Made by a program: the position numbers and the translations under genes. Positions 8,793 to 45,247 of a DNA stretch of 45,941 bases are shown here, in pieces. The notes under the pieces were generated by a model that worked only from the letters and a program-made list of their open reading frames with translations, was not told the origin of the DNA and made no database searches. The first letter of the stretch is position 1; each line of letters opens with the position of its first letter. Source of the stretch: a virus; IMG/VR virus record IMGVR_UViG_3300044492_000068, positions 1-45,941 of that record. One strand, written 5' to 3'.

Positions 8793-10319
8793 TTACGTTA
8801 CTCCGTCGAGGCGTCGCAGGATGTCGCGGACGCGGCGGGCGACGACTTCGGCGACTTGCGGGACGATCGCGTTGCCGAGCGTGCCGAGCCGTTGCCGCCG
8901 GTTGGAACGTCGACGTCCGTCCAGCCGATCGGGAACCCCATCAGCGTCTCCACCCAATCCGGATTTAGCACGGGACGAGGCGATGACGCGGGGAGGTTCC
9001 CACTCGTGTTGCCGTTCGCCCGGTCGTGCAGGCCAGCCAATTGATCGGGGAGCCCGCCCGTGTATTCCCCCTTCGCGACCTTCTGACTGATCCCCTTGTG
9101 ATCGCGACTCTGCGGCGTGAGCCAGTTCGGCGCCGGTTCCGCTTCCGGTTGCTCCTCCGCGCGCGTCGCGTCGGTTAGCGTCGTTCCCGCGTGCATGATC
9201 CCGGTTGTCGTCGTGTGCCTGGCCGCTGCGTTCGCGTCCGTCGTCTGCGGCGTCGGCCAGTCCTTCACAGCTCCGGAGAGCGTGCGCCCCGAATTCGGGC
9301 TCGTGCGGCCGACGTCGGGCCTCCCCTCGAAACCCGCCGCGTCCATCGTCGTCGGCGTCGGCCAGTTCTCGCGAACGGCATCCGTCAGGGTTCCGTTCGC
9401 CGTGCGACTCTCGCTGTCCTCTTTGATCGGCGTCGGCCAGTCGCGCGAGGCCCTCGCCTGATCCTCGAGCGACGGCTTGCTCGAGCGGCCGCCCTCCGAC
9501 GGCGGGAGGAGCGTTCTCGCGCCCGTCACGTTGCACGCTGCGCGCGGCGTCGACCAGTCGCCCTTCGCCTGTTTCGCGAGGCTCTTGCCCGTCGCCGGGC
9601 GCCCGGCGTTCGATCCGTTGTTGCTCGTCGCTTCCGGCGTCGCGTTCGGCGTCAACCATGTATCCGATGATGAAAACCCGCTCCCTCCGGTGCGGCGCTC
9701 CAACATCGGACGCTCGTACAATCGCCCACTCCGCGTCATACCCTCGATCGGCCAAGCATCCGAGAACGGCATCGATTCCCCGAACAAGGAGTCCTCGCAC
9801 GTTCTCAATAACCACGATCCGAGGACGTAGCTCGCCAATGACACGATCGAACTCGTACCAGAGCCCGGAGCGATCCCCGTCCAGACCAACTCGCTTACCG
9901 GCGTCGCTGACGTCCTGACAGGGGAACCCTCCGACGAGCACGTCGACGCGGCTTGGGTGTTCAGGCCCGTCGAGCGTTTCCCGTCGGCCTCCCGTGCGCC
10001 GTTCGCGTCCGACGTCGCTGGCGTGAGCCAGATCGCCCGCTCGACCACTGTGACGAGATCGTCGCCGCCGCTGCCCGCTCGATTGCGACGCGCCAGATCC
10101 GGGCCGCTCGATCGGTTTTTCGCCTCCGGCGTCGGCCACTCCGATCGATCGGACGTCGCTGTAGCAGGGAACTCCGGGCCAATGTCGAGCGAGGACTGCT
10201 CGACAGAATTCGTCGCTCTCGCATTGCCAGAGGACCCGGAACCCCGCGCGCTCAAATCCGAGATCGAACCCGCCGACGCCGGAGAACAGGGATCCGACGG
10301 TGTACGCGCCATCCGTCAC
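8793..10319 (-). CDS. dcm: DNA cytosine-C5 methyltransferase
   Basis: 508 residues, GTG start overlapping the upstream TGA. Motif I is SLFSGVGGFDLGF (residues 10-22), the catalytic motif IV is GGFPCQDVS with PCQ at 133-135, motif VI is ENV (172-174), motif VIII is RRERVF (211-216), and motif X is LGTLGNAIVPQVAEVV near the C-terminus. Between motifs I and IV and in the target recognition region the protein carries repeated LADA/LAHA-like segments followed by hydrophilic, Asp/Arg-rich sequence. These repeats coincide with W-(P/L/S)-T-P motifs in the +1 frame (see the overlapping feature). The N-terminal repeat-containing insert of about 60 residues before PCQ is longer than usual for this family. 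Confidence 0.9.
   Translation of the reverse strand: MTDGAYTVGSLFSGVGGFDLGFERAGFRVLWQCESDEFCRAVLARHWPGVPCYSDVRSIGVADAGGEKPIERPGSGASQSSGQRRRRSRHSGRAGDLAHASDVGRERRTGGRRETLDGPEHPSRVDVLVGGFPCQDVSDAGKRVGLDGDRSGLWYEFDRVIGELRPRIVVIENVRGLLVRGIDAVLGCLADRGYDAEWAIVRASDVGAPHRRERVFIIGYMVDAERDAGSDEQQRIERRAPGDGQEPRETGEGRLVDAARSVQRDGRENAPPAVGGRPLEQAVARGSGEGLARLADADQRGQRESHGERNPDGCRSRELADADDDGRGGFRGEARRRPHEPEFGAHALRSCEGLADAADDGRERSGQAHDDNRDHARGNDANRRDARGGATGSGTGAELAHAAESRSQGDQSEGREGGIHGRAPRSIGWPARPGERQHEWEPPRVIASSRAKSGLGGDADGVPDRLDGRRRSNRRQRLGTLGNAIVPQVAEVVARRVRDILRRLDGVT
8798..9772 (-). CDS. Possible second coding frame inside the C5 methyltransferase gene
   Basis: This frame is open over nearly the whole methyltransferase gene (8798-10312); the start given is the ATG of MPFSDAWPIEGM. 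It contains SDAWPIEGMTRSGRLYERPM, then repeats with WLTP, WSTP and WPTP about every 100 bases, and ends near LNPDWVETLMGFPIGWTD. I recognise this pattern from phage proteins commonly annotated as cytosine methyltransferases or fragments. The frame may be truly translated, or be a conserved shadow of the methyltransferase frame. Low confidence as an independent gene. Confidence 0.3.
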   Translation of the reverse strand: MPFSDAWPIEGMTRSGRLYERPMLERRTGGSGFSSSDTWLTPNATPEATSNNGSNAGRPATGKSLAKQAKGDWSTPRAACNVTGARTLLPPSEGGRSSKPSLEDQARASRDWPTPIKEDSESRTANGTLTDAVRENWPTPTTMDAAGFEGRPDVGRTSPNSGRTLSGAVKDWPTPQTTDANAAARHTTTTGIMHAGTTLTDATRAEEQPEAEPAPNWLTPQSRDHKGISQKVAKGEYTGGLPDQLAGLHDRANGNTSGNLPASSPRPVLNPDWVETLMGFPIGWTDVDVPTGGNGSARSATRSSRKSPKSSPAASATSCDASTE

Positions 10320-12483: not shown

Positions 12484-13365
12484 TTATCCCTCCGCCTGAT
12501 CGAGCGGGAGCGAGAGCGTCGTCGGCCCGGCGTCACGCTGGCCACGAGCGACGACGGCGGCCGCGTCCAGCTCCGCGCCGACGCCCTCGACGTCCTCGAA
12601 ATCCTCGAGCGCCTCGAGCGCGAGGCCCGGGAGCATCCCTTGCGAGAGCCGACGGACGGCGATCCGACACTGCCGCTCGTCGACGTCGATCCCGATCGCC
12701 CGGAGTCCTCGACGCTTCGCGACGACGAGCGTCGAGCCGGAGCCCATGAACGGATCGACGACGAGCGCGCCCGGCGGAACGTTCGCCATCGCCCACTCCA
12801 TCACGGCGAGCGGCTTTTCCGCGAGGTGATGGCGGCGTGAGACGGGCGGCGGCGAGAACTCGAAACCTCCGGACGGATACGCGCCGTTTTCCACGAGCGG
12901 CCCGTGCGAGGCCCACGGGAGAAACTCGCACGCGCCGGAGAACCCCCCGTCGCGCGGCCGCCCGAATTTTTTCGACCACACGCCGACGCCGCGCCATACC
13001 CAACCGCCCGCCTGGATCGCGTCGGTGATCGTCGGGAGTTGTCGCCAGTCGATGAACGTCGCGAACGTCGCGCCCTCGATCGCCGCGTTGCGCGCCGCCG
13101 ACATCCAGAGCGAGCACCATGCCGCGAACGCGCGCTGGTCCCGGTTGTCGCCCGTGAACCCGATCCCGTCCTGCTGGCTGCTGTCCGAACTCGCGTACTT
13201 GCTCAGCGTCGAGAACATCCGATCGCCGCGGAACGCGCCGCCGGAGCTGTAGGGAACATCCGTCACGAACGCGCCGACGCCCTTGAGCGTGTGGAGCACC
13301 TCGAAACAGTCGGCCCGGTAGATCGTGATCCCGTCGTGCTGGTAGTAGGGTTCGGGCGCGTGCAT
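12484..13365 (-). CDS. DNA N4/N6 amino-methyltransferase (beta class)
   Basis: 293 residues. The catalytic tetrad DVPY (residues 36-39) in FVTDVPYSSGG comes first and the SAM-binding motif DPFMGSGSTLVVAKRRG comes near the C-terminus, the motif order of beta-class adenine-N6 or cytosine-N4 methyltransferases. Val replaces the usual Pro/Pro in DPPY, a variant seen in some members. ATG at 13365 is preferred; a GTG at 13383 is in frame but lacks a ribosome binding site. Flanked by terminator-like hairpins on its upstream side, so it may be expressed independently. No cognate endonuclease is adjacent. Confidence 0.85.
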   Translation of the reverse strand: MHAPEPYYQHDGITIYRADCFEVLHTLKGVGAFVTDVPYSSGGAFRGDRMFSTLSKYASSDSSQQDGIGFTGDNRDQRAFAAWCSLWMSAARNAAIEGATFATFIDWRQLPTITDAIQAGGWVWRGVGVWSKKFGRPRDGGFSGACEFLPWASHGPLVENGAYPSGGFEFSPPPVSRRHHLAEKPLAVMEWAMANVPPGALVVDPFMGSGSTLVVAKRRGLRAIGIDVDERQCRIAVRRLSQGMLPGLALEALEDFEDVEGVGAELDAAAVVARGQRDAGPTTLSLPLDQAEG

Positions 13366-13405
13366 GGTTGAGGAGGGTATCACGAGCGGCCAGGCGGGCC
13401 GGGAC

Positions 13406-16768: not shown

Positions 16769-17335
16769 TCAGACCTTTCGGAGCTTCCGGTACCGCGCGA
16801 GCACGTCGTCGGCGTATGCCGCATTCCGGAGCGGCCCCGTCGGCGCGTTGCCGGAGCGCCCGCCATTGTATGCGGCGAGGGCCGCCCGCGTCGCCGTCGC
16901 CTGGCGCTGGCCCTCGAGCCCGACGTAGAGCGCGCCCGCCCACTTGACGTGCCCGGCGAGGTGCTCCGCCCCGATCGCGAGATTGATCTCGACGTCGGAG
17001 CATAGGCGGGTGAGGTACTTCCCCTTGTATCCGTGCTCGCGCGCGACGGCGCCCATGATCTGAGTGAGGCCCCACGAGGCTTGCTGGCCCCACCATTCCT
17101 GATCGGGATCGCCCGCGAGCGCGGGGAAATCCTTCGGGGGAAACTTTGAGGCGAGCTCGACATCCGACACGCGGCGGAACGGCCGCCCCTCGCGCACGTT
17201 CCAGAGGTATCGGTATTTCGGTTCCGGGTTCCACGCGTCCGGATCGCCGGAGGATTCCTTGTCGACGAGCGCCGCGAGTAGATCCGGATCGAGGACAGCC
17301 GTCGCGGCCGCCGCCTCGAGCTCCGCGCGGAACAT
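16769..17335 (-). CDS. Lytic transglycosylase (endolysin, SLT type)
   Basis: 188 residues. The family signature is present: catalytic Glu27 in VDKESSGDPDAW, then the GLTQIMGAVAREHGY motif, and AALAAYNGGRSGN near the C-terminus. These are the motifs of soluble lytic transglycosylases, which cleave the MurNAc-GlcNAc bond of peptidoglycan to form 1,6-anhydroMurNAc. No signal peptide, so release would need a holin; candidate membrane proteins lie just upstream (18737-19978). The ATG shares one base with the stop of the beta-helix gene. This is the most likely endolysin of the phage. Confidence 0.88.
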   Translation of the reverse strand: MFRAELEAAAATAVLDPDLLAALVDKESSGDPDAWNPEPKYRYLWNVREGRPFRRVSDVELASKFPPKDFPALAGDPDQEWWGQQASWGLTQIMGAVAREHGYKGKYLTRLCSDVEINLAIGAEHLAGHVKWAGALYVGLEGQRQATATRAALAAYNGGRSGNAPTGPLRNAAYADDVLARYRKLRKV

Positions 17336-18729
17336 CAGTACCCCGCGCCGCCGGCGAGGAGCTTCAACGTCGTCGGGTTGAGGAGCGCCGCGAGCGCGCC
17401 CGCCTTGACGATCTGATTGTTCGGGGGGAGCGCGATCGTCCGGAGATCCGACATTTCGATCACGTTGCCGGAGAACTCGACGACGGTCGTGTAGCTCGTG
17501 AGCGAAGCGAGCCCGGGACCCGTCGAGCCGTCGCCCATGATCCCATAGTCGCCGGTTCGGAGGACGTTCCGCGAGAACGTGATCGGCGTGATCACTTTCG
17601 TCGACGTCGAGCCGGAGAACTGTAGGAACCGACTCGCGACCCGGGGGAGCGTATTGTTCGTGACGACGAGCGCGTCGGCGACGCCGTTGATCACTTGGAA
17701 CCCGTTCGGCGACTCCGCGAACAGGTTTCGATCGATCGTCAGTTTCCGGAGCTGTCCGGACGGACCCGAGTCGTCGCGCCCGAGTACGTTCACGGCGAAC
17801 CCGTCAGGCGCGCGGCGAACGGTGTTCCCGCGGATCGTTACGTCGTCGACGGTGCACCATGGGCAATCGCCCTGCCCGCGAGCGGTGATCACGATCGGCG
17901 ATCCCGCCTGGCCGTCTGTCCAGTTGCCATCGATCGTATTGCCCTCGACGAGCACGCGCAGGCCGATCTTCGCCTCGACGGAATTCTTGACGGTGCCGAG
18001 CGTCCGGAAACTGTCAGGCTTGCGGATCGTGTTCCCCCGGATCGTGATGTCGGCCGGGTTCATCCCGACGATCCCCGGCGTCGCGCCGCCGATCAGGATG
18101 TTCTCGCCGCTCGCCTCGAGCACGGAGTCGAGCACGGCATACGGGCCGGGACCGTTGAGGATCCACACGGCCTGAGAGTCGCGGCCCTTTTCGTAGAACC
18201 CGAGCACGCTCACGCGCTGCAGGGTGATGTCGGAGCCGTGGAGCGCGAACCCGCGATGCCCGCCGCCCTTCGCCGACGGGAGCACCTTCACGTCCTCGAA
18301 ACGAACCCGGTGAGGTTGCGCGTCGGCGCTCGTCGCGTCGGCGGTCCCGACGACGATCGCGTCGCGATCCGGGTTCCCGAGTTGAACCGCGAGGCCCCGC
18401 ACGATAACGTCGTTCGCCGCGACCTTGAGCGTCGGCGTGAACCCGTCGGCGGCGACGAGCGTCGCGCCAGCCGCCGCGAGCGTCGTCGGTTTTGAGATCG
18501 TGAAGTTGCCGGAGTAGGTGCCAGGCGCGACGGTGATCGCGCCGCCGGTTCGGAGGGCGCCGACGAGGGCCGCGGCGTCGGTCACTGTCACGCCGCCCGG
18601 CTGCGGCGGCGGCGTCGTGATGGCGGCCCGGAGCTGCTCGAGCGTGCCCTGCAGTTGATCGATCAGTTGCGCCGGCGTTTGGGATTGCGCGAGGAGGAGG
18701 AGCGCGAGGAGCGCGGTTCGTGTGTTCAT
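17335..18729 (-). CDS. Secreted right-handed beta-helix protein
   Basis: 464 residues. Residues 1-20 (MNTRTALLALLLLAQSQTPA) form a typical Sec signal peptide. Residues about 45-430 show repeated short strands with Asn-Thr-Ile, Val and Gly (ITIRGNTIRK, VLVEGNTIDGN, VTIRGNTVRR, LTIDRNLFAES, LVVTNNTLPR, ITFSRNVLRTG), the coil pattern of parallel beta-helix proteins such as pectate-lyase-like and tailspike folds. A signal peptide is unusual for a phage virion protein, so this may be exported from the infected cell or lysogen and act on extracellular polysaccharide. Enzyme activity is not evident from the sequence. Confidence 0.8.
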   Translation of the reverse strand: MNTRTALLALLLLAQSQTPAQLIDQLQGTLEQLRAAITTPPPQPGGVTVTDAAALVGALRTGGAITVAPGTYSGNFTISKPTTLAAAGATLVAADGFTPTLKVAANDVIVRGLAVQLGNPDRDAIVVGTADATSADAQPHRVRFEDVKVLPSAKGGGHRGFALHGSDITLQRVSVLGFYEKGRDSQAVWILNGPGPYAVLDSVLEASGENILIGGATPGIVGMNPADITIRGNTIRKPDSFRTLGTVKNSVEAKIGLRVLVEGNTIDGNWTDGQAGSPIVITARGQGDCPWCTVDDVTIRGNTVRRAPDGFAVNVLGRDDSGPSGQLRKLTIDRNLFAESPNGFQVINGVADALVVTNNTLPRVASRFLQFSGSTSTKVITPITFSRNVLRTGDYGIMGDGSTGPGLASLTSYTTVVEFSGNVIEMSDLRTIALPPNNQIVKAGALAALLNPTTLKLLAGGAGY

Positions 18730-30653: not shown

Positions 30654-32648
30654 CTACGAGGGTTCGGCGCCGACGTTCTTGTAGAGCCCGCGCCAGTCGA
30701 GCACCTTCGCCGCGAAGTCCTCGCGACACTTGATCTCGATCCCGTCGACGTCGAACCCGATCCGCGTCTCGATCGTCGGACCCTCCTCGCCCTCGAGGTA
30801 TCCGTATTCGATGATGTCGATCTGCTCCGGCGCGGCCGCGATGTACCACGCGAGCGGTTCGTTGTCGAGCCGTGGTTCGGCGATCACCATGAGCTTCCCG
30901 CTGAACGGGTTCACGGCGATCACGGTCTGCGGCGTGATCGGCGTCACGATGGCGTCGCCCTGCGTCTCGAGGGCGGAGCCCACGATCAGGAACTTCGGCG
31001 CGATGTTCAGCCGCTCGCCGTCGAGCGATACCTGCTGGCGCATGGACGCGCGCGCGGCGCCGAGCGAGTCGACATCGATCACGGCGCCCGCCGAGTCGAT
31101 GTTCAGGTGAGCCGCCGAGAAGAGCGCGTTGCCGTCGCCCATGATCGGATTGCTCGTGATCTGATCCCACACCAGATCGCTTTCGAGGTTCCGCGCCGCC
31201 CGTCCGAACATCGTCGGGACGCGACCGAACGCGTCGGCGTCGTCGTTCACGAGCGCCTTCCGCGTGATGGCGAACACGCGGCCGTACGTCGCGAGCTGGT
31301 ACGACTCGCGGCCCTCGCCGATCGTGCCCCGCTTGAACTCGCCGTGCTCCTTCACCTCGAGGAGCGCGGGCGCGTCGCCCATCTGCTGACGATAGACGGG
31401 CTTGAAATCGGGGAGGTTGACCTGCCGGGAGATCGCCTTGAACGTCTGCGGCGCCTCGTCGTACGCCTTGCGAACCGTCTTGTTCGCGACGTCGGCCAGG
31501 AGGTACGCGAAATCGCTCGTCGTGTGGTAGCCGTGCCCGCTGCGCTGATTGAGGCCGAGCGCCGCGGCGGCCAGCTCCATCTTCGACAGGCCCGACGTCC
31601 GGACGCCGGCGGCGTGCAGGAACGTGCGCGCCGTGTCGAGGAGCGTGAGCCCGCGATACGGCCGACTCTTGTCGTCGATCTTGAAGTACTGCGGCGCGAT
31701 CCGGTGCAGGAGCGCGGCCTCGATGCCGCCCCGCACGTGCACGAGCGGATCTTCGCCGAGCGTGATCGAGGACCCGCCCGGCTGCGGGCCGCGATCCTGC
31801 GCGCCGCGCGCCTGGAGCTCGACGAACACGAGTCGCGAAACCTCGTCGAGCGCGGTTCGCGCCTTGATGTGCTGATCGATGAACGTCTGCGGCATCCGCC
31901 CGGCGCGCGCGGCCGTCATGATGCCCTCGACGCGAGCGGTTTCCGCGGCGACGGCGCGATCGACGTCCGTCGGTTCGGCGGCCGGTCGCGCGGGCGGATC
32001 GGCCGGGTGGAGCCGGAGCGCCGCGGCGGCGGGATCTTCTGCGACGGTTTCAGGGCGGGCGGCGGGATCGTTTCGCACGGGCTGCTCCTTGCGGATGATG
32101 AGGCACGAGTTGGTCGCTACCTCGTGATTGCGGACGCGAGCGCCGACGTCGGCCGGCATCGGGACCATTGACACTTCGTAGGGTTCCCAATCGACGGCGG
32201 TACGAACCGGGATCGCGCCCGTCGTGTCCTCCATGAATTTGTGAACCCGATAGCCGACGCTGACGTTCTGGATCACGCCGTCGATCACGTCGCGATAGAT
32301 CTCCTCGACGGCGGCGCGTTTCGAGAACCGCACGCGGACGATCGCGTCGGTGCCCTCGAGTCGAAAGGAATTCGCGACGACGGTTCCGATCTGATCGGTG
32401 ATCGACCACGCGGAATGAGCGTCGAGGAGCGGCGCCGTGTTGAGGCGTCCCGTCCGGATCGCCTTTTTCGAGATCTCGAGCTGCTCGAGATATCGCGTGT
32501 CGCTCATCCAGTCGTACCGCTCGACGCCCGCGCCCGTCGAGAAAATCAGCTCGACGGATCGATCGTCCTCGTTTGCCGACGCGACGTTCGCGCGGGCCAT
32601 TAGGGAGAGCGGCGGAACATCGATCGTTTGTGACGCGCCCGGCTTCAT
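30654..32648 (-). CDS. Prohead protease-major capsid protein fusion
   Basis: 664 residues in one chain. The N-terminal region (about 1-200) has the HK97-type prohead protease pattern: DAHSAWS with His78 and QNVSVGYRV with Ser130. A Pro/Ala-rich linker (about 190-260) likely acts as the scaffold delta domain. The C-terminal part (about 310-664) is the capsid subunit (KMELAAAALGLNQRSG, GEGRESYQLATYGRVFAITRKALVNDD, NLESDLVWDQITSNPIMGDGNALF). Fused protease-capsid proteins are known in phages, and the fused protein must cleave itself to free the mature subunit. ATG at 32648 was chosen; no strong RBS was seen, but a stem-loop lies just upstream. Confidence 0.85.
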   Translation of the reverse strand: MKPGASQTIDVPPLSLMARANVASANEDDRSVELIFSTGAGVERYDWMSDTRYLEQLEISKKAIRTGRLNTAPLLDAHSAWSITDQIGTVVANSFRLEGTDAIVRVRFSKRAAVEEIYRDVIDGVIQNVSVGYRVHKFMEDTTGAIPVRTAVDWEPYEVSMVPMPADVGARVRNHEVATNSCLIIRKEQPVRNDPAARPETVAEDPAAAALRLHPADPPARPAAEPTDVDRAVAAETARVEGIMTAARAGRMPQTFIDQHIKARTALDEVSRLVFVELQARGAQDRGPQPGGSSITLGEDPLVHVRGGIEAALLHRIAPQYFKIDDKSRPYRGLTLLDTARTFLHAAGVRTSGLSKMELAAAALGLNQRSGHGYHTTSDFAYLLADVANKTVRKAYDEAPQTFKAISRQVNLPDFKPVYRQQMGDAPALLEVKEHGEFKRGTIGEGRESYQLATYGRVFAITRKALVNDDADAFGRVPTMFGRAARNLESDLVWDQITSNPIMGDGNALFSAAHLNIDSAGAVIDVDSLGAARASMRQQVSLDGERLNIAPKFLIVGSALETQGDAIVTPITPQTVIAVNPFSGKLMVIAEPRLDNEPLAWYIAAAPEQIDIIEYGYLEGEEGPTIETRIGFDVDGIEIKCREDFAAKVLDWRGLYKNVGAEPS

Positions 32649-32660
32649 GATGTGCGACAG

Positions 32661-32688
32661 CTTGCGGGAGGGCGGCGCCGTCCGCAAG
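32661..32688 (-). promoter_or_regulatory. Leader hairpin before the protease-capsid gene
   Basis: CTTGCGG (32661-32667) pairs with CCGCAAG (32682-32688) across a 14-base loop containing GGCGCC. It lies 12 bases before the ATG at 32648 in a 74-base gap, one of the few leaders in the packed head module, so it may regulate or process the capsid mRNA. Confidence 0.45.
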
Positions 32689-32722
32689 GGACTAGCGCCG
32701 CGAGCGATCACGAAAAGCCTAT

Positions 32723-32968
32723 TTACTCGACGGGCTTTCCATAGCGGCGCGCGTCGCGAATTCGGATCCGGAGATCCCCGCCGGGGAGGCGATAGGCCCG
32801 GAGCGCGCCTTTTCGGATGTCGCGATAGATCGTCTGGACGCGGACGCCCCACTTCGCCGCCAGCTCCGCGGGCGCGATCGCGGCCTCGAGGTACGGAGCG
32901 CCGCGCCGTCGACGCGTGTCGTTCCGTTCGTCGGGCCAGTGCACGGAGCGGGGAGGCTCGCCTGCCAT
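32723..32968 (-). CDS. Excisionase-like small HTH protein
   Basis: 81 residues. PAELAAKWGVRVQTIYRDIRKGALRAYRLPGGDLRIRIRDARRYG (residues 33-77) is the MerR/excisionase-type winged helix with wing, as in helix-turn-helix 17 proteins. It lies between the portal and protease genes, an odd place for a regulator; an accessory packaging or regulatory role is possible. Start ATG 2 bases after the portal stop. Confidence 0.7.
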   Translation of the reverse strand: MAGEPPRSVHWPDERNDTRRRRGAPYLEAAIAPAELAAKWGVRVQTIYRDIRKGALRAYRLPGGDLRIRIRDARRYGKPVE

Positions 32969-32970
32969 GG

Positions 32971-34524
32971 TTACGTGTCCTCCTCCGTCACGTCGGCCGA
33001 CGGCGACGCGGGTTCCGTCGGCGGAACGGGATCAGCCGGAGCGGCGGGCGCGGCCGGCTGCGTTTGCGACATCCCGGCTTGCGTCATTTTCCGGGGATCG
33101 CTGTCGAGGATGATCTCCGACTTGTCGAGGAGAGCGTTCCACGCCTTCATCTCCGCGATCACTTTCGTCGGGTTGAGCCCGCGCGCGCGAAGCTCCTCCT
33201 GCATCGTCGTGATCCCGGTTCGCACGTTGCGGAGGATCGCCAGGCCCTCCGACGCCGGATCGATGAACGGGAGCGGCGGCGGCGTCCACTCGACGTCCGG
33301 AACCTCCGCCGACTTGAGGAGCCCCGCGATCGCGGCCGCTTCCATCGCCCACGCCCACGCCGGATCACAGAACCCGGGGATCACGAGTCTCCATCGCCAG
33401 TCGTCGACGTCGGGCTGATGCGCGAGGCGCGACATACGCGCGGCGGAGAAACTGAGATCCCGGTGATCGCCGGTCATGCCCTCGTACAGCACGCGGAGCC
33501 CGCTCGAGATTCCACGGAGGTTGCGATCCATGTAATCGCCGTACTCATTCACGCGCGGAGGCTCGACGACGGAGATCTGTCGGCCCGCCGGGAGGTTCTG
33601 GATCATGCCCGGCGAGAGCGCATCGATCGACGGCGTTTGTGAGTCGTTCGGATCGCCGAGCGGCGCGCCGGAGCCGTCGAGATCGTCGCGCACGAACACG
33701 GCCAGGCACGCGGCGATCTTTTGCTTCACGAGCGTCGCGTCGTCGTAGTCGTCGAGATCCTTCCACTTGAGGAGCGACGGCGCGAACCATGAAACCGCGC
33801 GCACCTGGCCGGGCCGATCGCCGCGGAACAAATGCCGCACGCCCTCCGCCGGGATCCGCACGGAGGGCGCGTAAGCTCCGCCGACGCTGCCCGGGTGTTC
33901 GCGAAAGAGCCAGTACGCGACCCGCTCGCCGATCGGGGAGAACTCGACGCCCTGAACGATCTTCCCGCCGTTTGGCGTCGTGATCTGATCCTTTGTCGTG
34001 TCGAGGAAATCGGGCTCAAGGATCTGGAGCTGTAGCGGGATCGGGAGCCCGTCGGACGGGAGCCGGAAGCGTCGGCGGATCAGCACCTCGCCCGACTCCG
34101 CCATCGTTCGGAGCACGAGCTTTTGTAGGCCGTAGATGTCGTGCTGTCCGTCCGCGTCGCAGGCCGTCGTCTCCGCCCACTTCCGCCAGAGCGTCATCGC
34201 GCGAGCGTTCGGCGACTCCGCGACGATCCCCCATCCGATCGTTTCGTTCACGATCGACGAGAGCGCCGCCGACGCATAGGGATTGTTTCGCACGAGATCC
34301 CGCACGGCCTGACGGAGCGGCGCGGCGGCCGGGCCGATCGCCGCGTTCGCGTCCGTCGCCGGCTTGCGCCATCCCTGCGTCCGGTAGGTGTTCGCCGCCC
34401 CTTCGTAGTGGCGGGCGAGGATCTCGCCGGCGTAGCGCGCGCGCTGCCGCTTGAGCGTCCATCGCGGCGCGACCGTGGACGTCATCCGATCGAGCCAGTG
34501 CTGGCGCGCGATTCTATCGGCCAT
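32971..34524 (-). CDS. Portal protein (lambda B family)
   Basis: 517 residues. Segments such as RARYAGEILARHYEGAANTYRTQGW, PLRQAVRDLVRNNPYASAALSSIVNETIGWGI and ARAMTLWRKWAETTACDADGQHDIYGLQKLVLRTMAESGEVLIRRRF are characteristic of lambda-type portal proteins, the dodecameric ring through which DNA enters the capsid. Its gene follows the glycan cassette and overlaps it by 11 bases, so it is co-transcribed. Confidence 0.93.
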   Translation of the reverse strand: MADRIARQHWLDRMTSTVAPRWTLKRQRARYAGEILARHYEGAANTYRTQGWRKPATDANAAIGPAAAPLRQAVRDLVRNNPYASAALSSIVNETIGWGIVAESPNARAMTLWRKWAETTACDADGQHDIYGLQKLVLRTMAESGEVLIRRRFRLPSDGLPIPLQLQILEPDFLDTTKDQITTPNGGKIVQGVEFSPIGERVAYWLFREHPGSVGGAYAPSVRIPAEGVRHLFRGDRPGQVRAVSWFAPSLLKWKDLDDYDDATLVKQKIAACLAVFVRDDLDGSGAPLGDPNDSQTPSIDALSPGMIQNLPAGRQISVVEPPRVNEYGDYMDRNLRGISSGLRVLYEGMTGDHRDLSFSAARMSRLAHQPDVDDWRWRLVIPGFCDPAWAWAMEAAAIAGLLKSAEVPDVEWTPPPLPFIDPASEGLAILRNVRTGITTMQEELRARGLNPTKVIAEMKAWNALLDKSEIILDSDPRKMTQAGMSQTQPAAPAAPADPVPPTEPASPSADVTEEDT

Positions 34525-35149
34525 CGTTTACCCCTTCCGGAACAATTGCGATCCGCTTCGTCGGCGTCGGTTCAGGCCCTCGACAGGGACAGCGTTTCGC
34601 CGTCGGGACCGTCGACGGGAGCGCGTCGCCGTGCGCCCGTCGCCAATGGTAGACGTACAGACTCTCGAGCACGTAGACGCGGAGCCCGGCGCGCGCGACG
34701 GCGAAGTGCATCATGTGATCGACGCAGAGCATTCCGTCGACGAACCCGCCCGCGCGTTCCCACGTCGCCCGCGATAGACACATGAGCACGCCGCCGAGCC
34801 CCTTCGTGTCCGTGACGTCGAGGAGCGTTCGCCGCTCGAGGCGCGCGGCGCCGAGCTTCCGGTGATACGCCATGTCGTGATTGTCGCGATCGGCCTCCGC
34901 TGCGCGCTGCCAGGGCGAGGCGATCCGGTTCGTCGTCGCCGTGAGCAGGCCGACGTCGGGCCGGTGCTCGATCACTTCGACGAGTTGCCGGTACCACTCG
35001 CGCGTCGTCGGCATCGCATCATGATCGAACAGGCAGGCCCACGCGTCGGCGGGTAGCAGGGACATCGCGCGGTTGTAGGCGCGCCCGAGGTTCGCGTCGA
35101 GATCGAACGGCGTGAACGTGATCAGCTCTATCGCCACTCGCTCACCCAT
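34514..35149 (-). CDS. GT-A glycosyltransferase (family 2-like)
   Basis: 211 residues. A DHD metal/nucleotide-binding motif (residues 42-44 in ACLFDHDAMP), then GGVLMCLSRATWERAGGF and VDHMMHFAVARAGLRVYVL match the C-terminal acceptor half of family 2 glycosyltransferases. The N-terminus is shorter than normal (PFDLDANLGRAYNRAM takes the place of the nucleotide-binding strand). The ATG at 35149 overlaps the preceding gene by 22 bases; a GTG at 35137 is an alternative. It ends inside the portal start. Confidence 0.75.
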   Translation of the reverse strand: MGERVAIELITFTPFDLDANLGRAYNRAMSLLPADAWACLFDHDAMPTTREWYRQLVEVIEHRPDVGLLTATTNRIASPWQRAAEADRDNHDMAYHRKLGAARLERRTLLDVTDTKGLGGVLMCLSRATWERAGGFVDGMLCVDHMMHFAVARAGLRVYVLESLYVYHWRRAHGDALPSTVPTAKRCPCRGPEPTPTKRIAIVPEGVNDGR

Positions 35150-35832
35150 GGATACCGATCCCGCTCCTCGAGCGCCGCGAGATCGTCGGAGCCGAGCACG
35201 ACGATCCGCGCGCCTGTCGGGAGGTTCGGATGGCCAGGCCCGACGCCGCGCGCCTCGAGCCGCTCGTATCCCGCGCCGAAAAAGGTAACGAACCCGTCGG
35301 CCTCCGTCCACACGGCCGGGCGGATCTTCGTGTACGGGCGGGATAGAAAGTAATTGAGCATCGCCTGATCGCTCCCGACGCCGTTCGGCCAGGCGCGCCG
35401 CGGATAGCCGTCGGGATCCGCGTCGAACGCGCGCCAGAGCGGATCGAGCACGCCCGCGTCCATGAGGAGGATCGAGCCGGAGAACACGCCCGCGTATGCG
35501 ACGCGCCAGCACACGAGCGGATCGGGCCGATCGACGAGCGGCGTAATGTCGTCGACGAGCACGACGTCGAGATCGAGCGCGAGGATCCGATCGCCGATCG
35601 CCGTGATCCACTCGCGATCGAACTGTCGCATCCGCCGACGGCATCGCGGCGAGTCGCTGTAGCGGGCCGGGAGCGGGATCGTCTCGATCGCGTCGTCGAG
35701 GCCCTCAGCGTCGTCGGTGACACAGACGAGACGATGCGGGAGCGCGAGCCGGCGCGCGAGCATCGATCGGAGCGTGTTCACGTGACGCGCCGCGAATTTG
35801 GTTCCCCACTTCCACGTTAGGACGGTTAGCAC
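35128..35832 (-). CDS. Glycosyltransferase (GT8-like fold)
   Basis: 234 residues, GTG start overlapping the upstream stop. A DLD motif (residues 87-89) in RILALDLDVVLVDDI, followed by GSILLMDAGVLDPLW and NGVGSDQAMLNYFL, matches retaining glycosyltransferases that transfer sugar from a nucleotide sugar with a DxD-bound metal. It belongs to a block of four overlapping genes. Substrate unknown. Confidence 0.75.
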   Translation of the reverse strand: MLTVLTWKWGTKFAARHVNTLRSMLARRLALPHRLVCVTDDAEGLDDAIETIPLPARYSDSPRCRRRMRQFDREWITAIGDRILALDLDVVLVDDITPLVDRPDPLVCWRVAYAGVFSGSILLMDAGVLDPLWRAFDADPDGYPRRAWPNGVGSDQAMLNYFLSRPYTKIRPAVWTEADGFVTFFGAGYERLEARGVGPGHPNLPTGARIVVLGSDDLAALEERDRYPWVSEWR

Positions 35833-37487
35833 TCCTCGTACTCCCGTTGACTGTCGAGAAAAAACGCCGACGCCCGCGCGTGCGCGAGCTGCGAGCGGTA
35901 ACAGGCGAGCGCGCGGATCTTCCGCTCGATCGCGTCGGTCGCCTCCGGAACGATCTCGCGGCCGCCGACGACGCGGGCGCCGTCCCGGTACGTGTGGTAG
36001 CGCCGCACGGCGGAGCCGAACACCTCGACGGCCGCCCGGGCGACGGCGACGTGATCGGCGTGCGACGCCTCGAGGCTTGGCGCCCACACTTCCGACGGCA
36101 TCCCGTGCACCTCGACGAGCGCCCGCATACGCGCCGCGAGATCGCCGCCGCTCCACTGCTCGACGGGCCCGGCGCCGAGAATCGCGGCCGCTGCGCGCGA
36201 CTCCTCCGCCCTGGTGAACGTGTCGCCGTAGTCGCGGACGGATGGAAAACAGACGACGATCCGCGGCCGGGCGCGCTGTAGCACGAACGCCGCGAATAGC
36301 GTCTCGTCGTCGGCGTGCGGCGCGAACAGGAGCGCGTTCCGCTTCACGCCCTCGACAAAAAACACGTGCGGCGGTTCGCCGTGGTACCGCTGACAGAGCG
36401 AGTCGTCGCGGTAGCGGGTTTCGTACGGCCCCACGTCGGCGACGTCGAACCCGGCGCGCGCGAGCTGCTCGCGCACGAACGCCGGCGTCGTGAGCGTGAC
36501 GGCGGGTTGTGAACCCTTCCAGCCGCCGCGCCTCGACGATCGCGGATCGCTCGTCTCATCCTCCGTGATCCGCACGACGCCGCCGGGCTCGAGGACCCGC
36601 GCGAGCTCGTCGACGAACGCGGGCCAGTCGTCGGCCGCGAGGTACATGAGCGCATGAGAGATCGTGATCCCCGACACGGAGCCGCCCGCGAAATCGCGGA
36701 GCCCGTGCTCAAACTTCCAGCCGAGCGCCTTGTCGAGATTCACGAGGCCGGGGAGCGGATGCCAGGACCGATCGGCCGGGTTCCCGCATCCGAGGTTCAG
36801 GCGGAGCGGCGAGCGGATCCCGCTATGCGCCTGCCTGGCCGACTTCGGGATCCGGCTGCGGCCCGTGATGCCGTGCCGGTACGTCGCGAGCACCTCCGGA
36901 ACGTATCGGCATCGCGCCGCCTCCGCGATCGCGATCCAGAAGTACCAGTCCTCCGGAACCTGCTGATCGTCGAACCGGATCGATCCGATCGTCGCGCGTC
37001 GAATGAGCGGCGACATGATCGGGATCACGTTGCCGCGGCGGAGGATCGGCGCGATCCAGCCGCCGAGATCGAGCCGCTCGTATCCGTACTGAGAAGACGC
37101 CTTGATCGTCCGTTGCTTCGCGGCGTCCTGGATCTCGACGTCGCACAGTACCCAGCCGATCGTTTCGTCGAACGCGCGGATCTGCGTCTCGAGCTTTTCC
37201 GGTTCGATCGTGTCGTCGGCGTCGAGGAACATCACGAACGCGCCGCGCGCCAGCTCGATCCCGAGGTTCCGCGCCGACGATGGCCCGCTATGCGGTTGTC
37301 GCACGTAGCGGACGCGGGGATCGTCGGCGAACGCGGCGAGCGCCTCCGGCGTCGCGTCGGTGGAACCGTCGTCGACCACGATCACTTCCACGGGGATCGA
37401 CTGATCGAGCACGCTCCCGATCGCCTCGCCGACGACGGCGCCGTGATTGTGCGACGGGACGATCACGCTCACGAGCGGCGCGTTCAC
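35826..37487 (-). CDS. Glycosyltransferase-methyltransferase-PIG-L deacetylase fusion
   Basis: 553 residues, GTG start overlapping the upstream stop. Domain 1 (about 4-205) is a family 2 glycosyltransferase: VSVIVPSHNHGA, VVDDGSTD (38-45), LDADD (88-92), VPEDWYFW (178-184). Domain 2 (228-380) is a class I SAM methyltransferase with LNLGCGN (230-236) and SHALMYL. Domain 3 (385-553) is a PIG-L/LmbE N-deacetylase with FAPHADDE (388-395) and HADH (476-479), the zinc ligands of enzymes that remove acetyl from GlcNAc. The three may act in series: transfer an amino sugar, methylate it or an acceptor, and deacetylate it. The fusion lies in the head operon, pointing to virion glycan or host-surface glycan modification (inference). 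Confidence 0.85.
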   Translation of the reverse strand: MNAPLVSVIVPSHNHGAVVGEAIGSVLDQSIPVEVIVVDDGSTDATPEALAAFADDPRVRYVRQPHSGPSSARNLGIELARGAFVMFLDADDTIEPEKLETQIRAFDETIGWVLCDVEIQDAAKQRTIKASSQYGYERLDLGGWIAPILRRGNVIPIMSPLIRRATIGSIRFDDQQVPEDWYFWIAIAEAARCRYVPEVLATYRHGITGRSRIPKSARQAHSGIRSPLRLNLGCGNPADRSWHPLPGLVNLDKALGWKFEHGLRDFAGGSVSGITISHALMYLAADDWPAFVDELARVLEPGGVVRITEDETSDPRSSRRGGWKGSQPAVTLTTPAFVREQLARAGFDVADVGPYETRYRDDSLCQRYHGEPPHVFFVEGVKRNALLFAPHADDETLFAAFVLQRARPRIVVCFPSVRDYGDTFTRAEESRAAAAILGAGPVEQWSGGDLAARMRALVEVHGMPSEVWAPSLEASHADHVAVARAAVEVFGSAVRRYHTYRDGARVVGGREIVPEATDAIERKIRALACYRSQLAHARASAFFLDSQREYEEC

Positions 37488-38218
37488 TGGCGCGCCTCGA
37501 CGGCGGCCGCGTCGAGCGCGCGCCAGGCGGCGACGAGCGGCGTGAGCACGGGCCGCGGCGCGAGGCCCCGGAAGATCGCGCGCCGTAGATCGCTTTTCAG
37601 GTGAACGATCCGCGTGAGCGCGGGATCGAACCGCTTCCACGTCGAGTCCTCACAGTTCCAGATCTCGCCGGGGAGCTGCGCGACCTGGCATCCGTGCCCG
37701 GCGCGCTCGAGCATGAACCCGAGGGCCGCTTGATTGATCCCGGCGTACCGTGTGCGCCACGGGCGGAGCGCCGCCGCGTCGCCGAGAAAGCTCCGATTCA
37801 CGGCGGCCCACTGCTCGAGGAATCCCCGCGAGCGCGACGACGCGCGCACGAACACGACGCCGGCGTTGAGCGGGAGGCGATCGGCGGCCGTCGTGTAGGC
37901 GAGATCGAACGGGAGATCCCACACGGGATCGAGCGGCCCCGTGATCATCGTGTCGGCGTCGATCAGGAGAACCCGATCGCCGTCGTCGGCGGCCGCGATG
38001 ATGTCGCGCCATCGATCGAGCTTCGCGGAATTGTGCTCGTGAGCGGGAACGCCGAGCGTCGAGCGATAGCCGACGGCCGGGGGGATCTCGACGATCTCGA
38101 CGCGCCAGCCGGCGGCGTGACGGAGCGCCGAGTACTCGAGCGCGCGCGCCATCCGGCGGAACTCATCCCCGGCGACGCCTGACCCGAAGTACACGGAGGC
38201 GAGGAGCGGCGCGGCCAT
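37484..38218 (-). CDS. GT8-type glycosyltransferase
   Basis: 244 residues. DAD (87-89) in RVLLIDADTMITGPL, a region NAGVVFVRASSRSRGFLEQW and NQAALGFMLERAG are typical of GT8-type enzymes (glycogenin and LPS glycosyltransferase family). The gene is the first of the glycan cassette, beginning 17 bases after the gpW-like stop. Substrate unknown. Confidence 0.78.
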   Translation of the reverse strand: MAAPLLASVYFGSGVAGDEFRRMARALEYSALRHAAGWRVEIVEIPPAVGYRSTLGVPAHEHNSAKLDRWRDIIAAADDGDRVLLIDADTMITGPLDPVWDLPFDLAYTTAADRLPLNAGVVFVRASSRSRGFLEQWAAVNRSFLGDAAALRPWRTRYAGINQAALGFMLERAGHGCQVAQLPGEIWNCEDSTWKRFDPALTRIVHLKSDLRRAIFRGLAPRPVLTPLVAAWRALDAAAVEARQ

Positions 38219-38235: not shown

Positions 38236-38451
38236 CTATACGCCCTTGCTCGTCGTTCCGACCCGGTACGCCCGACGCGTGTCGGTCCCGAGCGGCCCCG
38301 TGATCTCCGCCTCCATCCGCGCGAGGAGCTTGAGCATGTCGTCGATCGAATTGAACGTAACGGACTGATCCGAGAACGACATCGATCGAGCGCCTCGCCC
38401 GTCGGCGATTGCGCGCCGGAGGTTCTCCGCGTCGGTTGTGGTAAATGGCAT
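38236..38451 (-). CDS. gpW-like head-tail joining protein
   Basis: 71 residues from the ATG at 38451. FTTTDAENLRRAIADGRGARSMSFSDQSVTFNSIDDMLKLLARMEAEI is the size and pattern of lambda gpW and related head-tail joining proteins, which bind the portal to allow tail joining. In lambda gpW also lies between the large terminase and the portal. Here the glycan cassette follows it. Confidence 0.78.
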   Translation of the reverse strand: MPFTTTDAENLRRAIADGRGARSMSFSDQSVTFNSIDDMLKLLARMEAEITGPLGTDTRRAYRVGTTSKGV

Positions 38452-38571
38452 GGGCTTTGCCGCCGAGAATAGCACGGCGGCGAGCGCGGCCGTAAGCTCC
38501 GGGCGGCCTGGCGGCCCTAGAAACGGCGCGCCTGTCGGGAGGGCCGGGAGGCCGGGCCGCCGCCGTCCAGC

Positions 38572-40720: not shown

Positions 40721-41307
40721 TCGCCGGCGGCCTCGAGCCGATCCGCCGCCTCGCCGAGCGCCTCGCGGATCGCGTCGTCGAGGCGCGTGAAGATCTTCCC
40801 CGGATCGGTTTCGGCGGCGAGCTCTGCGGAGATCCGGGCCGGGAGGTTCAGCAAGGTTTCACGGATGATACGGGAACTCTCAAACGCTTCCCGCTTCGCC
40901 GCCTTGACGTCGATCGTGAGGCCCGCCCGGAGATCGTTGTCGATCTTGAGCCGACGATGCCGCTCCATCGTCGCCATACGCGACGCCTCGCTGAGCGACT
41001 GACGATCGCCGCCGACGTCAGGCCCGGGCGGAACCTTCGCGGCGTTCGCGTCCCATGCGACGCGCGCGGCGTCGGCGTCGGTGATCACTTGCTTTCTCCC
41101 GCTGCGCGAGAGCCCGACGCACGTCGACGGGATCCGGCCCGACGCGATCCCCTTCCGCACCGCTTTCTCGTCGACGTTCACGAGACGGCCGAACGCGGCG
41201 ATCGATGTCTCGACGAGCGTCGGCGTCGCGGCTGCCGTCCGTGACGGCGGCGCGGGTTTCCGCTTCCGCTTGCCCTTCGTCGCTCGAGCCGATCGGCGAC
41301 GCGTCAC
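40717..41307 (-). CDS. terS: Terminase small subunit (Nu1-like)
   Basis: 196 residues, GTG start overlapping the upstream TGA. After a basic N-terminus (RRRSARATKGKRKRK) comes a winged-helix DNA-binding part (TSIAAFGRLVNVDEKAVRKGIASGRIP, VGLSRSGRKQVITDADAARVAWDANA) as in Nu1/gpNu1-like proteins, and a C-terminal helical part (MATMERHRRLKIDNDLRAGL, SSRIIRETLLNLPARISAELAAE) for binding the large subunit. Confidence 0.85.
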   Translation of the reverse strand: MTRRRSARATKGKRKRKPAPPSRTAAATPTLVETSIAAFGRLVNVDEKAVRKGIASGRIPSTCVGLSRSGRKQVITDADAARVAWDANAAKVPPGPDVGGDRQSLSEASRMATMERHRRLKIDNDLRAGLTIDVKAAKREAFESSRIIRETLLNLPARISAELAAETDPGKIFTRLDDAIREALGEAADRLEAAGE

Positions 41308-42047
41308 GCCCGCCGCCCTTCCGTCGTTCCTGGAACTGGCGACGCCTCGACGTCGTACCGGCGCCGGGCGACGTCCTCCGGCGGCGTCGCTGCGGTCCTG
41401 CGCGACAGCTCCGCCCACGCGCGCGAAACCGCTCCGGTCCCGGGGAACAAATCCTCGAGCGTGTCGCCGGGGAGCATCCCGAGGAGATCGAACAGCCAGG
41501 CACAGAACGCGATCGGCTTGCGCCCCGGGAGTCGCCCGGCGCCGCGCGCCGGCGCTGCGCGGAGCCAGTCCCGCTTGCCGGGCCGGAGTCGTCGCCCTGG
41601 CACGACGATCACGGGTTCCCACGTGTTGTGTAGGCCGTAGGTTCGCGAGCACGCGCCGATCGGCTTGACCCACGCGCACACGCGAGCGGCCGGAGGACAG
41701 AGCGGGAGGAGATCGCGGAGCGACGCCGCCGACGTCGAGAGCGCCCAACCTAGACACGCGCCCGCCGCGCGCGCCGCCTCAAGCTCCGCGATCAGCCGCG
41801 GGAAGTCCACCTCGCCCGCGTACGTCGGTTCGCCCCGGTAGTACTTCGCCGCGAGGCCGGGATAGGGAGGATCAGCGTATCGGAACGATCCCGGCGCCGT
41901 CGCGCCGTCGCTCGTGGCCACCGCGCCGGATCGTTTGCGGAGCCGGAACGCCGATTGTCGACACGCCTTAGAACAGAACCGTCGCGAGCTGCTCTGAGCG
42001 ACGCCGGGGATCTCCCCCTTGCACCATTGGCAGATCAATCGACACAC
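41304..42047 (-). CDS. Zinc-ribbon DNA methyltransferase with DPPY
   Basis: 247 residues. An N-terminal zinc motif (C6-x2-C9 and C25-x3-C29, in CQWC and RFCSKACRQS) precedes a methyltransferase: DPPY at 59-62 in RYADPPYPGLAAKYY and EDLFPGTGAVSRAW near residue 210 (a variant of the SAM-binding FxGxG loop). DPPY marks amino (N6-adenine or N4-cytosine) methylation. The methyltransferase is short, so the target-recognition part may be small or borrowed. The gene overlaps the PAPS-reductase-like gene by 13 bases. Confidence 0.75.
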   Translation of the reverse strand: MCRLICQWCKGEIPGVAQSSSRRFCSKACRQSAFRLRKRSGAVATSDGATAPGSFRYADPPYPGLAAKYYRGEPTYAGEVDFPRLIAELEAARAAGACLGWALSTSAASLRDLLPLCPPAARVCAWVKPIGACSRTYGLHNTWEPVIVVPGRRLRPGKRDWLRAAPARGAGRLPGRKPIAFCAWLFDLLGMLPGDTLEDLFPGTGAVSRAWAELSRRTAATPPEDVARRRYDVEASPVPGTTEGRRA

Positions 42048-42751
42048 ACGCGACAGCGTTCGTACTGCCGAAACAATTCCATTTGAACGTCGGCGCCTCG
42101 CGGGACGTCGCCCGCCTCGAAACGCGCGCGGAGATCCTTGAGCGCGGCGGGCCAGGTGTCACGGCCCGGGGATCGGAACGTGTGCCCGTGTCGCTCCTCG
42201 AGCAACTCGCCGCGCGCCCACTCCTCCGGATCGGCCCGCCACAGTTCCCACCATTCGCCGAGCTGCTGGTCGTAACAGAGTTTGCAGTTCGTGCGCTGCG
42301 GCGGATGGACGTCGCGCGAGTCGAGGTACTGGAGCACGGCCCGCCGGTTCCATCCCCACTCGCGGAGCGGATAGCGGTACGTCGCATAGCTCCCGTAAAT
42401 CCCGCCGCGATCCTCCTCGTCGGCCCGGAGCCCGACGGAGAGCGTGATCGGATCGGTCTGCTCGAGTAGCCAGGCGATACAGGGCTCGATCTTGATCTGC
42501 CGCGTGCACCATCGCTGCCGCCAGTTCGGGAGCGCGCCGTGGTGCTCGATCCAGAACATGAGCGACCGATTCGCCGGGCGGATGATCGGGCGGGAGATCG
42601 CGGCGGCGACGGCCTCGACGTGATCGAATAGCGCGGCGGGTTCGTTCCCGGCTGGCGTGAACAGCAGGGAGAATTCCTCCCCAAGCTCCGCGAGCCGGAG
42701 CGCCATCGCCGTTGAGTCGTTTCCGCCGCTGAACGCGAGAACCGATCTCAT
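42035..42751 (-). CDS. PAPS reductase-like (adenine nucleotide alpha-hydrolase) protein
   Basis: 238 residues. SGGNDS (8-13) is the PP-loop of N-type ATP pyrophosphatases. Cysteines in RWCTRQIKIEPC and TNCKLCYDQ may bind an iron-sulfur cluster. The combination is typical of phage PAPS-reductase-like proteins, related to DndC; here no dnd genes accompany it. Role unknown; sulfur chemistry on nucleic acid is a speculation. Confidence 0.8.
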   Translation of the reverse strand: MRSVLAFSGGNDSTAMALRLAELGEEFSLLFTPAGNEPAALFDHVEAVAAAISRPIIRPANRSLMFWIEHHGALPNWRQRWCTRQIKIEPCIAWLLEQTDPITLSVGLRADEEDRGGIYGSYATYRYPLREWGWNRRAVLQYLDSRDVHPPQRTNCKLCYDQQLGEWWELWRADPEEWARGELLEERHGHTFRSPGRDTWPAALKDLRARFEAGDVPRGADVQMELFRQYERCRVCVD

Positions 42752-44385: not shown

Positions 44386-44708
44386 TCGCTCGCCTCGATC
44401 AGAGCGCGCGCGGCGGCGACGTTCTCTGGATGGTGGAGCCATTGCTGGATCGTCGCGAGCTTTTTGATCCGCGCGTTCTCGAGGGCGCCGACGTCGACGA
44501 TCAGCCGCTCGAGGAGGAGATCGATCGCCGCGCGCACGTGCCCGATCTCAAGCTCCAACCGCTCGCGATTGTCGAGCGCGCCGTACCTTCTATCGAGTCC
44601 GTGACGGCCGATCTTGCCGATCTCCTGTAGTACCTCGCCGAGCTCCTCGACTAGATGATCGAACAGCTCGCGATCCGCCGGCGTCGGGTAGTTGACTTCT
44701 CCGTTCAT
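44382..44708 (-). CDS. MazG-like nucleotide pyrophosphohydrolase candidate
   Basis: 108 residues. LFDHLVEELGEVLQEIGKIGRHGLD (residues 16-40) has the EExxExxxxxxKxxRHG layout of MazG-like phage proteins, where paired acids bind metal. The later acidic pair (ELEIGHVRAAIDLLLERL) resembles the family second helix. The likely role would be hydrolysis of NTPs or alarmones. The usual EExxE is spread here as E23-E24-x2-E27. Moderately sure. Confidence 0.6.
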   Translation of the reverse strand: MNGEVNYPTPADRELFDHLVEELGEVLQEIGKIGRHGLDRRYGALDNRERLELEIGHVRAAIDLLLERLIVDVGALENARIKKLATIQQWLHHPENVAAARALIEASE

Positions 44709-45247
44709 GGTTTCCCTTCCGGAATGAGGAGAGCAAACGCGCCGGAGAGCGGACCCGTCTCGACGATCTCGACGCTCGCGCGATAGACGTCGGCCAGTCG
44801 AGCGATCGAGGGCCGGAGCGGCGGCGACGATACCTTGTGATCCTCCGTCGGGATCAGGACGGCCCGGCATCGCTGCAGGCAGTACTCCAAAACGACGGGA
44901 CGGCGCGGCGTGTCGTGCGGCCCGTCGATCAGGGCGAGATCGTAGCGGTTCCCGTCGAGCGCCGGGATCGTCAGGGGATCCGCCCACGTGTAGGCGCGAA
45001 CCTCGACGACGCCGGCGAACTTCATTCCCAGGCGCCGCCGGTAGACGTCGAGCCACTTCGGATCGTCCTCGCACGTGTCGATCGTTGTCGCGCCGCCCTC
45101 GACGAGCGCGAGCGTCGACGAGCCCGGGCCGAACTCGAGAACCGTCCGCGCCGCGAGGGCGCGAACGGTTCCGAGGACAGCCGCATAGTCGGCGAAGCTC
45201 CACCAGTGTTTCTCGACGGGATAGAGCACGAACGGCGGCGGCGCCAT
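44705..45247 (-). CDS. Class I SAM-dependent methyltransferase
   Basis: 180 residues from the ATG at 45247, 5 bases after the upstream stop. VLEFGPGSSTLAL (about residues 38-50) is motif I, TIDTCEDDPKW the acidic loop after strand 2, and YDLALIDGPHDTPRRPVVLEYCL the strand 4-5 region. The family resembles Methyltransf_24-type O-methyltransferases. It may modify a sugar or small molecule rather than DNA, and so could work with the glycan cassette (inference). Confidence 0.72.
   Translation of the reverse strand: MAPPPFVLYPVEKHWWSFADYAAVLGTVRALAARTVLEFGPGSSTLALVEGGATTIDTCEDDPKWLDVYRRRLGMKFAGVVEVRAYTWADPLTIPALDGNRYDLALIDGPHDTPRRPVVLEYCLQRCRAVLIPTEDHKVSSPPLRPSIARLADVYRASVEIVETGPLSGAFALLIPEGKP

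Follow-up and report, generated by a model that had tools for sequence, protein, structure and literature searches.

Why should a phage carry a set of sugar-modifying enzymes within its head operon? The question is raised by four genes, all on the minus strand, at 34514-38218 of the IMG/VR virus record IMGVR_UViG_3300044492_000068, from an uncultured phage (45,941 bases, analysed at full length and referred to as the window). They are flanked by a gpW-like gene and the portal gene, and the largest of them encodes a family 2 glycosyltransferase (GT2), a methyltransferase and a PIG-L/LmbE deacetylase in a single chain. What we favour, at a probability of about 0.6, is that enzymes expressed late in infection glycosylate a virion protein in the cytosol, giving a glycan that would end in a methylated, de-N-acetylated amino sugar. 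Below, L-numbers denote the records of relatives that were compared with the window.

A cassette of overlapping genes in the head operon

The cassette, the two borders of its insertion site and a fifth, separate gene are as follows.

38236-38475, minus strand: gpW-like head-tail adaptor gene, upstream border (PHROG 2545, head-tail adaptor Ad1, E 2.4e-11)
37484-38218, minus strand: GT8A, a GT-A-type glycosyltransferase of 244 amino acids with the DxD motif LLIDADTMI
35826-37487, minus strand: GT2-methyltransferase-PIG-L fusion gene, 553 amino acids, GTG start, identified by its Pfam domains
35128-35832, minus strand: GT8B, a glycosyltransferase of 234 amino acids with a DLDVV motif (PHROG 1962, glycosyltransferase, 2e-8)
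34514-35149, minus strand: GT2C, a small GT-A glycosyltransferase of 211 amino acids with a DHDAM motif (PHROG 14179, glycosyltransferase, 2e-20)
32971-34524, minus strand: lambda-type portal protein gene, downstream border (PF05136, E 2.9e-100)
44705-45247, minus strand: stand-alone S-adenosylmethionine (SAM) methyltransferase with the motif LEFGPGSST, fifth member of the set

All four cassette frames are open over the coordinates at which a first-pass annotation, made from the letters of the window alone, had placed four overlapping genes between the gpW-like and portal genes. A gap of 17 nucleotides separates the gpW-like gene from GT8A, after which each gene overlaps the next: the GT8A stop and the GTG start of the fusion by 4 nucleotides, the fusion and GT8B by 7, GT8B and GT2C by 22, and the GT2C stop and the portal start by 11. 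No sigma-70-like promoter was found within the cassette, and terminator-like sites there did not exceed chance level. GC content and GC at third codon positions (GC3) equal those of the adjoining head genes, and a recent foreign import was rejected on this ground. Other head genes nearby encode the gpA terminase and a protease-capsid protein; in the latter, the prohead protease and major capsid protein form one fused polypeptide (30654-32852, PHROG 4523).

The first-pass annotation had taken direct adjacency of gpW and portal to be the normal state, and this was seen in the cassette-free relatives L086, L091 and L081, where gpW directly precedes portal with gaps of about 4-12 nucleotides. The same order occurs in Bordetella phage PY223. 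A further occupant of this junction was noted in L082, namely a 312-residue open reading frame of no known Pfam family (L082:1950-2888).

The fusion protein and its predicted deacetylase domain

Three domains were delimited in the fusion.

36816-37487, minus strand: domain 1, residues 1-224, family 2 glycosyltransferase (PF00535, Glycos_transf_2, E 3.6e-32; motifs VVDDGSTD, LDADD and PEDW)
36345-36812, minus strand: domain 2, residues 226-381, class I SAM methyltransferase (PF08241, Methyltransf_11, E 1.7e-4, 22.6 bits against a cut-off of 21.2; motif LNLGCGN)
35829-36341, minus strand: domain 3, residues 383-553, PIG-L/LmbE zinc deacetylase (PF02585, PIG-L, E 6.2e-7, 30.4 bits against a cut-off of 28.2; motifs PHADDE and HADH)

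In the structure model domain 1 is a GT-A fold with DDG, DxD and ED motifs, aligning with the GT2 enzyme WrtF at Z 24 and with TarP at Z 23. The methyltransferase region was poorly resolved, and its assignment rests on the Pfam match and motif I. Across an alignment of 11 relatives we found the glycosyltransferase residues D39, D40, D89, D91, E179 and D180 to be invariant, as were the methyltransferase motif LNLGCG and the zinc ligands or catalytic residues of PIG-L (H391, D393, D394 and E395 of HxDDE, and H476 and H479 of HxxH); the sole exception within the three motif sets was one D478H. The ratio of nonsynonymous to synonymous substitution rates (dN/dS), calculated against three close relatives, was 0.21-0.44 in every domain, indicating purifying selection on all three. 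Besides the window, eight other IMG/VR records hold distinct fused copies (54-82% identity), which excludes sequencing error, and the idea of a frameshift artefact uniting separate genes, a check that the first-pass annotation had set, was rejected. Its 553-residue protein with three motif sets is thus confirmed to the exact length, and profiles, conservation and the structure model all agree with its division into three domains.

Since the matches of a full-length Foldseek query were filled by glycosyltransferases, the PIG-L domain was modelled by itself (AlphaFold2; predicted local distance difference test, pLDDT, 86; predicted template modelling score, pTM, 0.85). All ten Foldseek matches under 1e-3 were LmbE/PIG-L deacetylases. 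Structural alignment with 2ixd gave Z 15.9 and 2.7 Å across 164 residues, and values of about 15 were obtained for BshB, the teicoplanin and A40926 deacetylases and diacetylchitobiose deacetylase, compared with 7.7 for the closest unrelated fold. The family profile of the domain also matches BshB (1.2e-11). The PIG-L fold, whose absence had been named beforehand as grounds for refutation, is therefore present by model, Foldseek search and structural alignment alike. On this model, the third domain is a PIG-L/LmbE fold for which de-N-acetylase activity on an amino sugar is predicted. PIG-L enzymes strip N-acetyl groups off amino sugars, and the expected product is therefore a methylated sugar with a free amine. 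The known deacetylases (BshB, MshB, the teicoplanin and A40926 enzymes and diacetylchitobiose deacetylase) share fold, zinc ligands and catalytic motifs with domain 3 and are stand-alone proteins, whereas that of the window is fused to a glycosyltransferase and a methyltransferase in a phage.

The place of BshB among the nearest solved relatives raises the possibility that the fusion supplies an amino-sugar product in soluble form, or a nucleotide sugar, to some other process such as bacillithiol-like thiol synthesis, with its location among head genes being incidental. Stenotrophomonas phage DLP3 does encode both a PIG-L protein and an N-acetylglucosaminyl-malate synthase (PMC7326821). Thiol synthesis would, however, lead one to expect a GT4-type enzyme where domain 1 is GT2, and the block contains three more glycosyltransferases and is conserved as a set. 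We give this explanation very little credence.

Split forms, a fifth gene and cassette exchange

Two records (L012 and L013) encode PIG-L as a separate gene, the start of which overlaps the stop of the glycosyltransferase-methyltransferase gene by 4 nucleotides (ATGA and GTGA). One branch of the tree, with support of 100/99, has all nine fused forms on one side and both split forms on the other, a pattern consistent with a single fusion or fission event. Because adjacent genes became one chain, we suggest that the glycosyltransferase-methyltransferase and PIG-L activities act on the same product. On a distant phage contig (L015:8580-11708) a stand-alone PIG-L gene was noted close to a GT2-like gene and a pair of genes for FkbM methyltransferases.

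The stand-alone methyltransferase at 44705-45247 lies far from the cassette in the window; its homologue sits between the fusion and GT8B in the distant relatives L008, L010, L065 and L066. A profile search located this fifth gene in eight of the nine records with the fusion; the one without it is a 10-kb fragment. Both split records lack it, though they span 47 and 50 kb. Its profile matches the O-methyltransferase 6jcl (5e-4). The gene belongs with the cassette set and travels with the fusion.

Three relatives (L078, L075 and L079) are close to the window in their head genes, but the block that immediately precedes portal is another one. Where it can be seen whole, in L078, this alternative glycan cassette is arranged as follows; L075 and L079 begin inside it, and only its 3' part is visible there.

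L078:3025-5787: a Methyltransf_11 protein, a putative glycosyltransferase with an IDADV motif, a GT8A homologue (56%) and a group-1 glycosyltransferase

The two cassettes interleave on the portal tree, the well-supported branches of which require at least two changes for one cassette and at least three for the other, and the portal nearest to that of the window belongs to a phage with the alternative cassette. The gpW-portal junction is an exchange site for glycan cassettes. The first-pass annotation had noticed neither this exchange nor the fifth gene and the split forms. Since whole cassettes are exchanged there, related phages would carry different surface sugars. GT8A is retained in the alternative cassette (L078 and L075), which suggests that it performs a common step and that the remaining enzymes are the variable part.

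The other glycosyltransferases and known systems

The first-pass annotation had described two of the small enzymes as GT8-type. GT8A falls below the Pfam cut-off for GT8 (E 0.06), while its profile matches the Skp1 alpha-galactosyltransferase 6mw5 (E 1.7e-4), and the labels are kept here with caution. Library matches of GT8B and GT2C were confined to the phage glycosyltransferase PHROGs 1962 and 14179, respectively. Against solved structures GT2C had no match, and GT8B matched only a ribosomal protein, apparently by chance. True homologues of both were found in other viruses: GT2C is 27% identical to the C-terminal half of gp40 of Cellulophaga phage phi12:1, and GT8B 34% identical to a head-operon glycosyltransferase of Tetraselmis virus S20. 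In phi12:1 (gp39-gp40) and S20, as in the window, these homologues lie among head genes with a methyltransferase nearby; unlike the window, neither has the three-domain fusion, and their other genes are unrelated or unmatched.

The nearest arrangement in mycobacteriophages is that of Corndog gp35-gp38 and Firecracker gp33-gp36, where an O-methyltransferase and three glycosyltransferases lie between portal and protease (PMC4351075); we located O-methyltransferase and glycosyltransferase genes at this position in Firecracker (L072). One source (PMC12363180, after Freeman et al. 2023) describes protein glycosylation in Che8, Corndog and Myrna, holds phage glycosyltransferases responsible, and considers Che8 gp110 and Corndog gp38 essential for capsid glycosylation. 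The Corndog type resembles the window in having several adjacent glycosyltransferase genes and a methyltransferase in overlapping order beside portal in the head operon. It differs in having neither PIG-L nor a three-domain fusion, and in its insertion at portal-protease rather than gpW-portal. Family profiles from the window gave no match in Firecracker, apart from a marginal match of GT2C to gp35; in particular, they do not match gp36, the counterpart of Corndog gp38. Nor did any cassette gene match PF01755, the GT25-type family of the essential Corndog gp38 and Che8 gp110 enzymes. Direct homology to the Corndog and Che8 enzymes was thus not found, and we treat the link to them as an analogy of position and composition.

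Two other systems join a glycosyltransferase to a methyltransferase. Che8 gp108 is a GT2-methyltransferase fusion of 391 amino acids followed by two glycosyltransferases (gp108-gp110), in a phage whose capsid, according to the same source, is glycosylated. It differs from the fusion of the window in having a Methyltransf_24/TylF instead of a Methyltransf_11 domain, in lacking PIG-L and in its location at the right genome end. A064R of chlorovirus PBCV-1 combines two glycosyltransferase domains with a methyltransferase; together with the separate methyltransferase A061L, which adds a second methyl group, it completes the capsid glycan, and antigenic classes are defined by its mutations (PMC9614988). 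By composition this chain plus a separate methyltransferase is a close parallel to the window, whereas PBCV-1 is a eukaryotic virus with two glycosyltransferase domains, no deacetylase and an N-linked glycan. PIG-L, methyltransferase and glycosyltransferase are encoded by separate genes in phage DLP3 (PMC7326821).

Likely target of the cassette

For the target, the sugar and its chemistry, the order of reactions and the benefit to the phage, we infer the following scheme. Late in infection, in the host cytoplasm, the products of the four genes and of the methyltransferase gene at 44705-45247 would together attach a glycan to one of the phage's own virion proteins, be it the capsid or some other protein of head or tail. 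GT8A would probably carry out the step common to several cassettes, perhaps adding the first or core sugar, and the GT2 domain of the fusion would add a further sugar, most simply an N-acetylhexosamine. The methyltransferase domain would methylate that sugar, on oxygen or on the freed nitrogen, and the PIG-L domain would take off the N-acetyl group, so that the amine is free and carries a positive charge. Extension or completion of the glycan may fall to GT8B, GT2C and the separate methyltransferase. The entire cassette is swapped for another at the gpW-portal junction. Like the first-pass annotation, we favour virion glycosylation because of the position in the head operon, the overlap with the portal start, the lack of clear membrane segments and of a flippase, and the precedents described above. 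More tentative is a stronger version of this scheme, which we consider doubtful as a whole: that one enzyme places an amino sugar on a capsid glycan, takes off its N-acetyl group and adds a methyl group, which may go on the freed amine, to give a cationic methylated virion sugar, and that the cassette is swapped as a unit so that near-identical capsids would bear different sugar serotypes.

Several observations weigh against virion glycosylation by this route. The hydratase GalB is among the structural matches of the PIG-L domain, and for this reason the fold alone does not prove deacetylation. In L012, L013 and L066 most of the set is located upstream of the terminase gene, outside the head operon, with GT8A near portal; the set nonetheless stays together despite the altered gene order and is still beside terminase or portal. 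The cassette proteins are without clear sequence homology to the proven Corndog and Che8 enzymes, and sequence gives no indication of the sugar donors.

Host glycans are the substrates of many phage glycosyltransferases (PMC7326821), and the cassette might likewise alter a host surface glycan, leading to seroconversion or to superinfection exclusion, or act on a lipid-linked precursor, like GtrABC of temperate phages. Cassette exchange would suit such a role too, in that host surfaces change, and the GT2 domain has matches among GtrB-like PHROGs that reflect the fold they share. However, no membrane helices were predicted in the fusion, GT8A, GT2C or the stand-alone methyltransferase, and GT8B has one borderline segment (KD19 1.63; maxima across the cassette proteins were 1.01-1.63). 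A GtrA-type flippase (PF04138) was absent from the eight records searched. Moreover, the genes overlap portal and lie among late head genes, at a stage when lysis is imminent. We regard modification of host glycans as unlikely.

Glycosylated cytosine derivatives with further tailoring occur in phages, and the window encodes a C5-cytosine methyltransferase and other DNA methyltransferases, both of which could point to glycosylation and tailoring of phage DNA bases against restriction. Yet none of the nine records searched has a TET/JBP oxygenase, and in a search of six records a thymidylate-synthase-like hydroxymethylase was likewise absent. Three cassette-bearing records of 45-50 kb lack the C5-methyltransferase, and the cassette is placed among head genes. 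A DNA target is accordingly judged quite improbable, and a virion protein remains the preferred one. Involvement in defence was rejected, as PADLOC gave no match.

The DNA methyltransferases are an observation in their own right. Three types (Dam-like, C5-cytosine and N4/N6) and a fourth candidate with a DPPY motif and no Pfam match, at 7650-8312, 8793-10319, 12484-13383 and 41304-42047, are many for a 46-kb phage. The DPPY-motif gene is overlapped by a gene for a 3'-phosphoadenosine 5'-phosphosulfate (PAPS) reductase-like protein (42035-42751), and the two are possibly a DNA-modification pair.

Novelty and wider meaning

The methyltransferase and PIG-L parts of the fusion, and GT8A, had no match among 50,697 phage records. 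No fused relative was found in bacteria by a pattern scan of 84,980 species genomes, which gave essentially GT2-domain matches and used two short glycosyltransferase-domain patterns that can miss relatives. We found no paper on the GT2-methyltransferase-PIG-L combination. The suggestion of the first-pass annotation that the architecture may be undescribed therefore stands for the three-domain order and not for glycosyltransferase-methyltransferase fusions, which are already known from Che8 gp108 and PBCV-1 A064R; what appears to be new is that a glycan enzyme of a phage carries a PIG-L domain as well.

In the literature covered here, phage virion glycosylation is reported in only a few mycobacteriophages. 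If our interpretation is correct, lambda-like phages of an unrelated host share this trait, and the phage particle would gain a new chemistry, de-N-acetylation to a free amine, of which we found no report. It would also define a site where close relatives exchange sugar-coat cassettes, so that phage sugar serotypes could be compared and put to the test, and biochemistry would gain a compact carbohydrate enzyme with three activities.

Elsewhere in the window a right-handed beta-helix protein (17335-18729) is encoded beside a transglycosylase (SLT) gene (16769-17335), and we consider the two products candidate glycan-degrading tail or lysis proteins.

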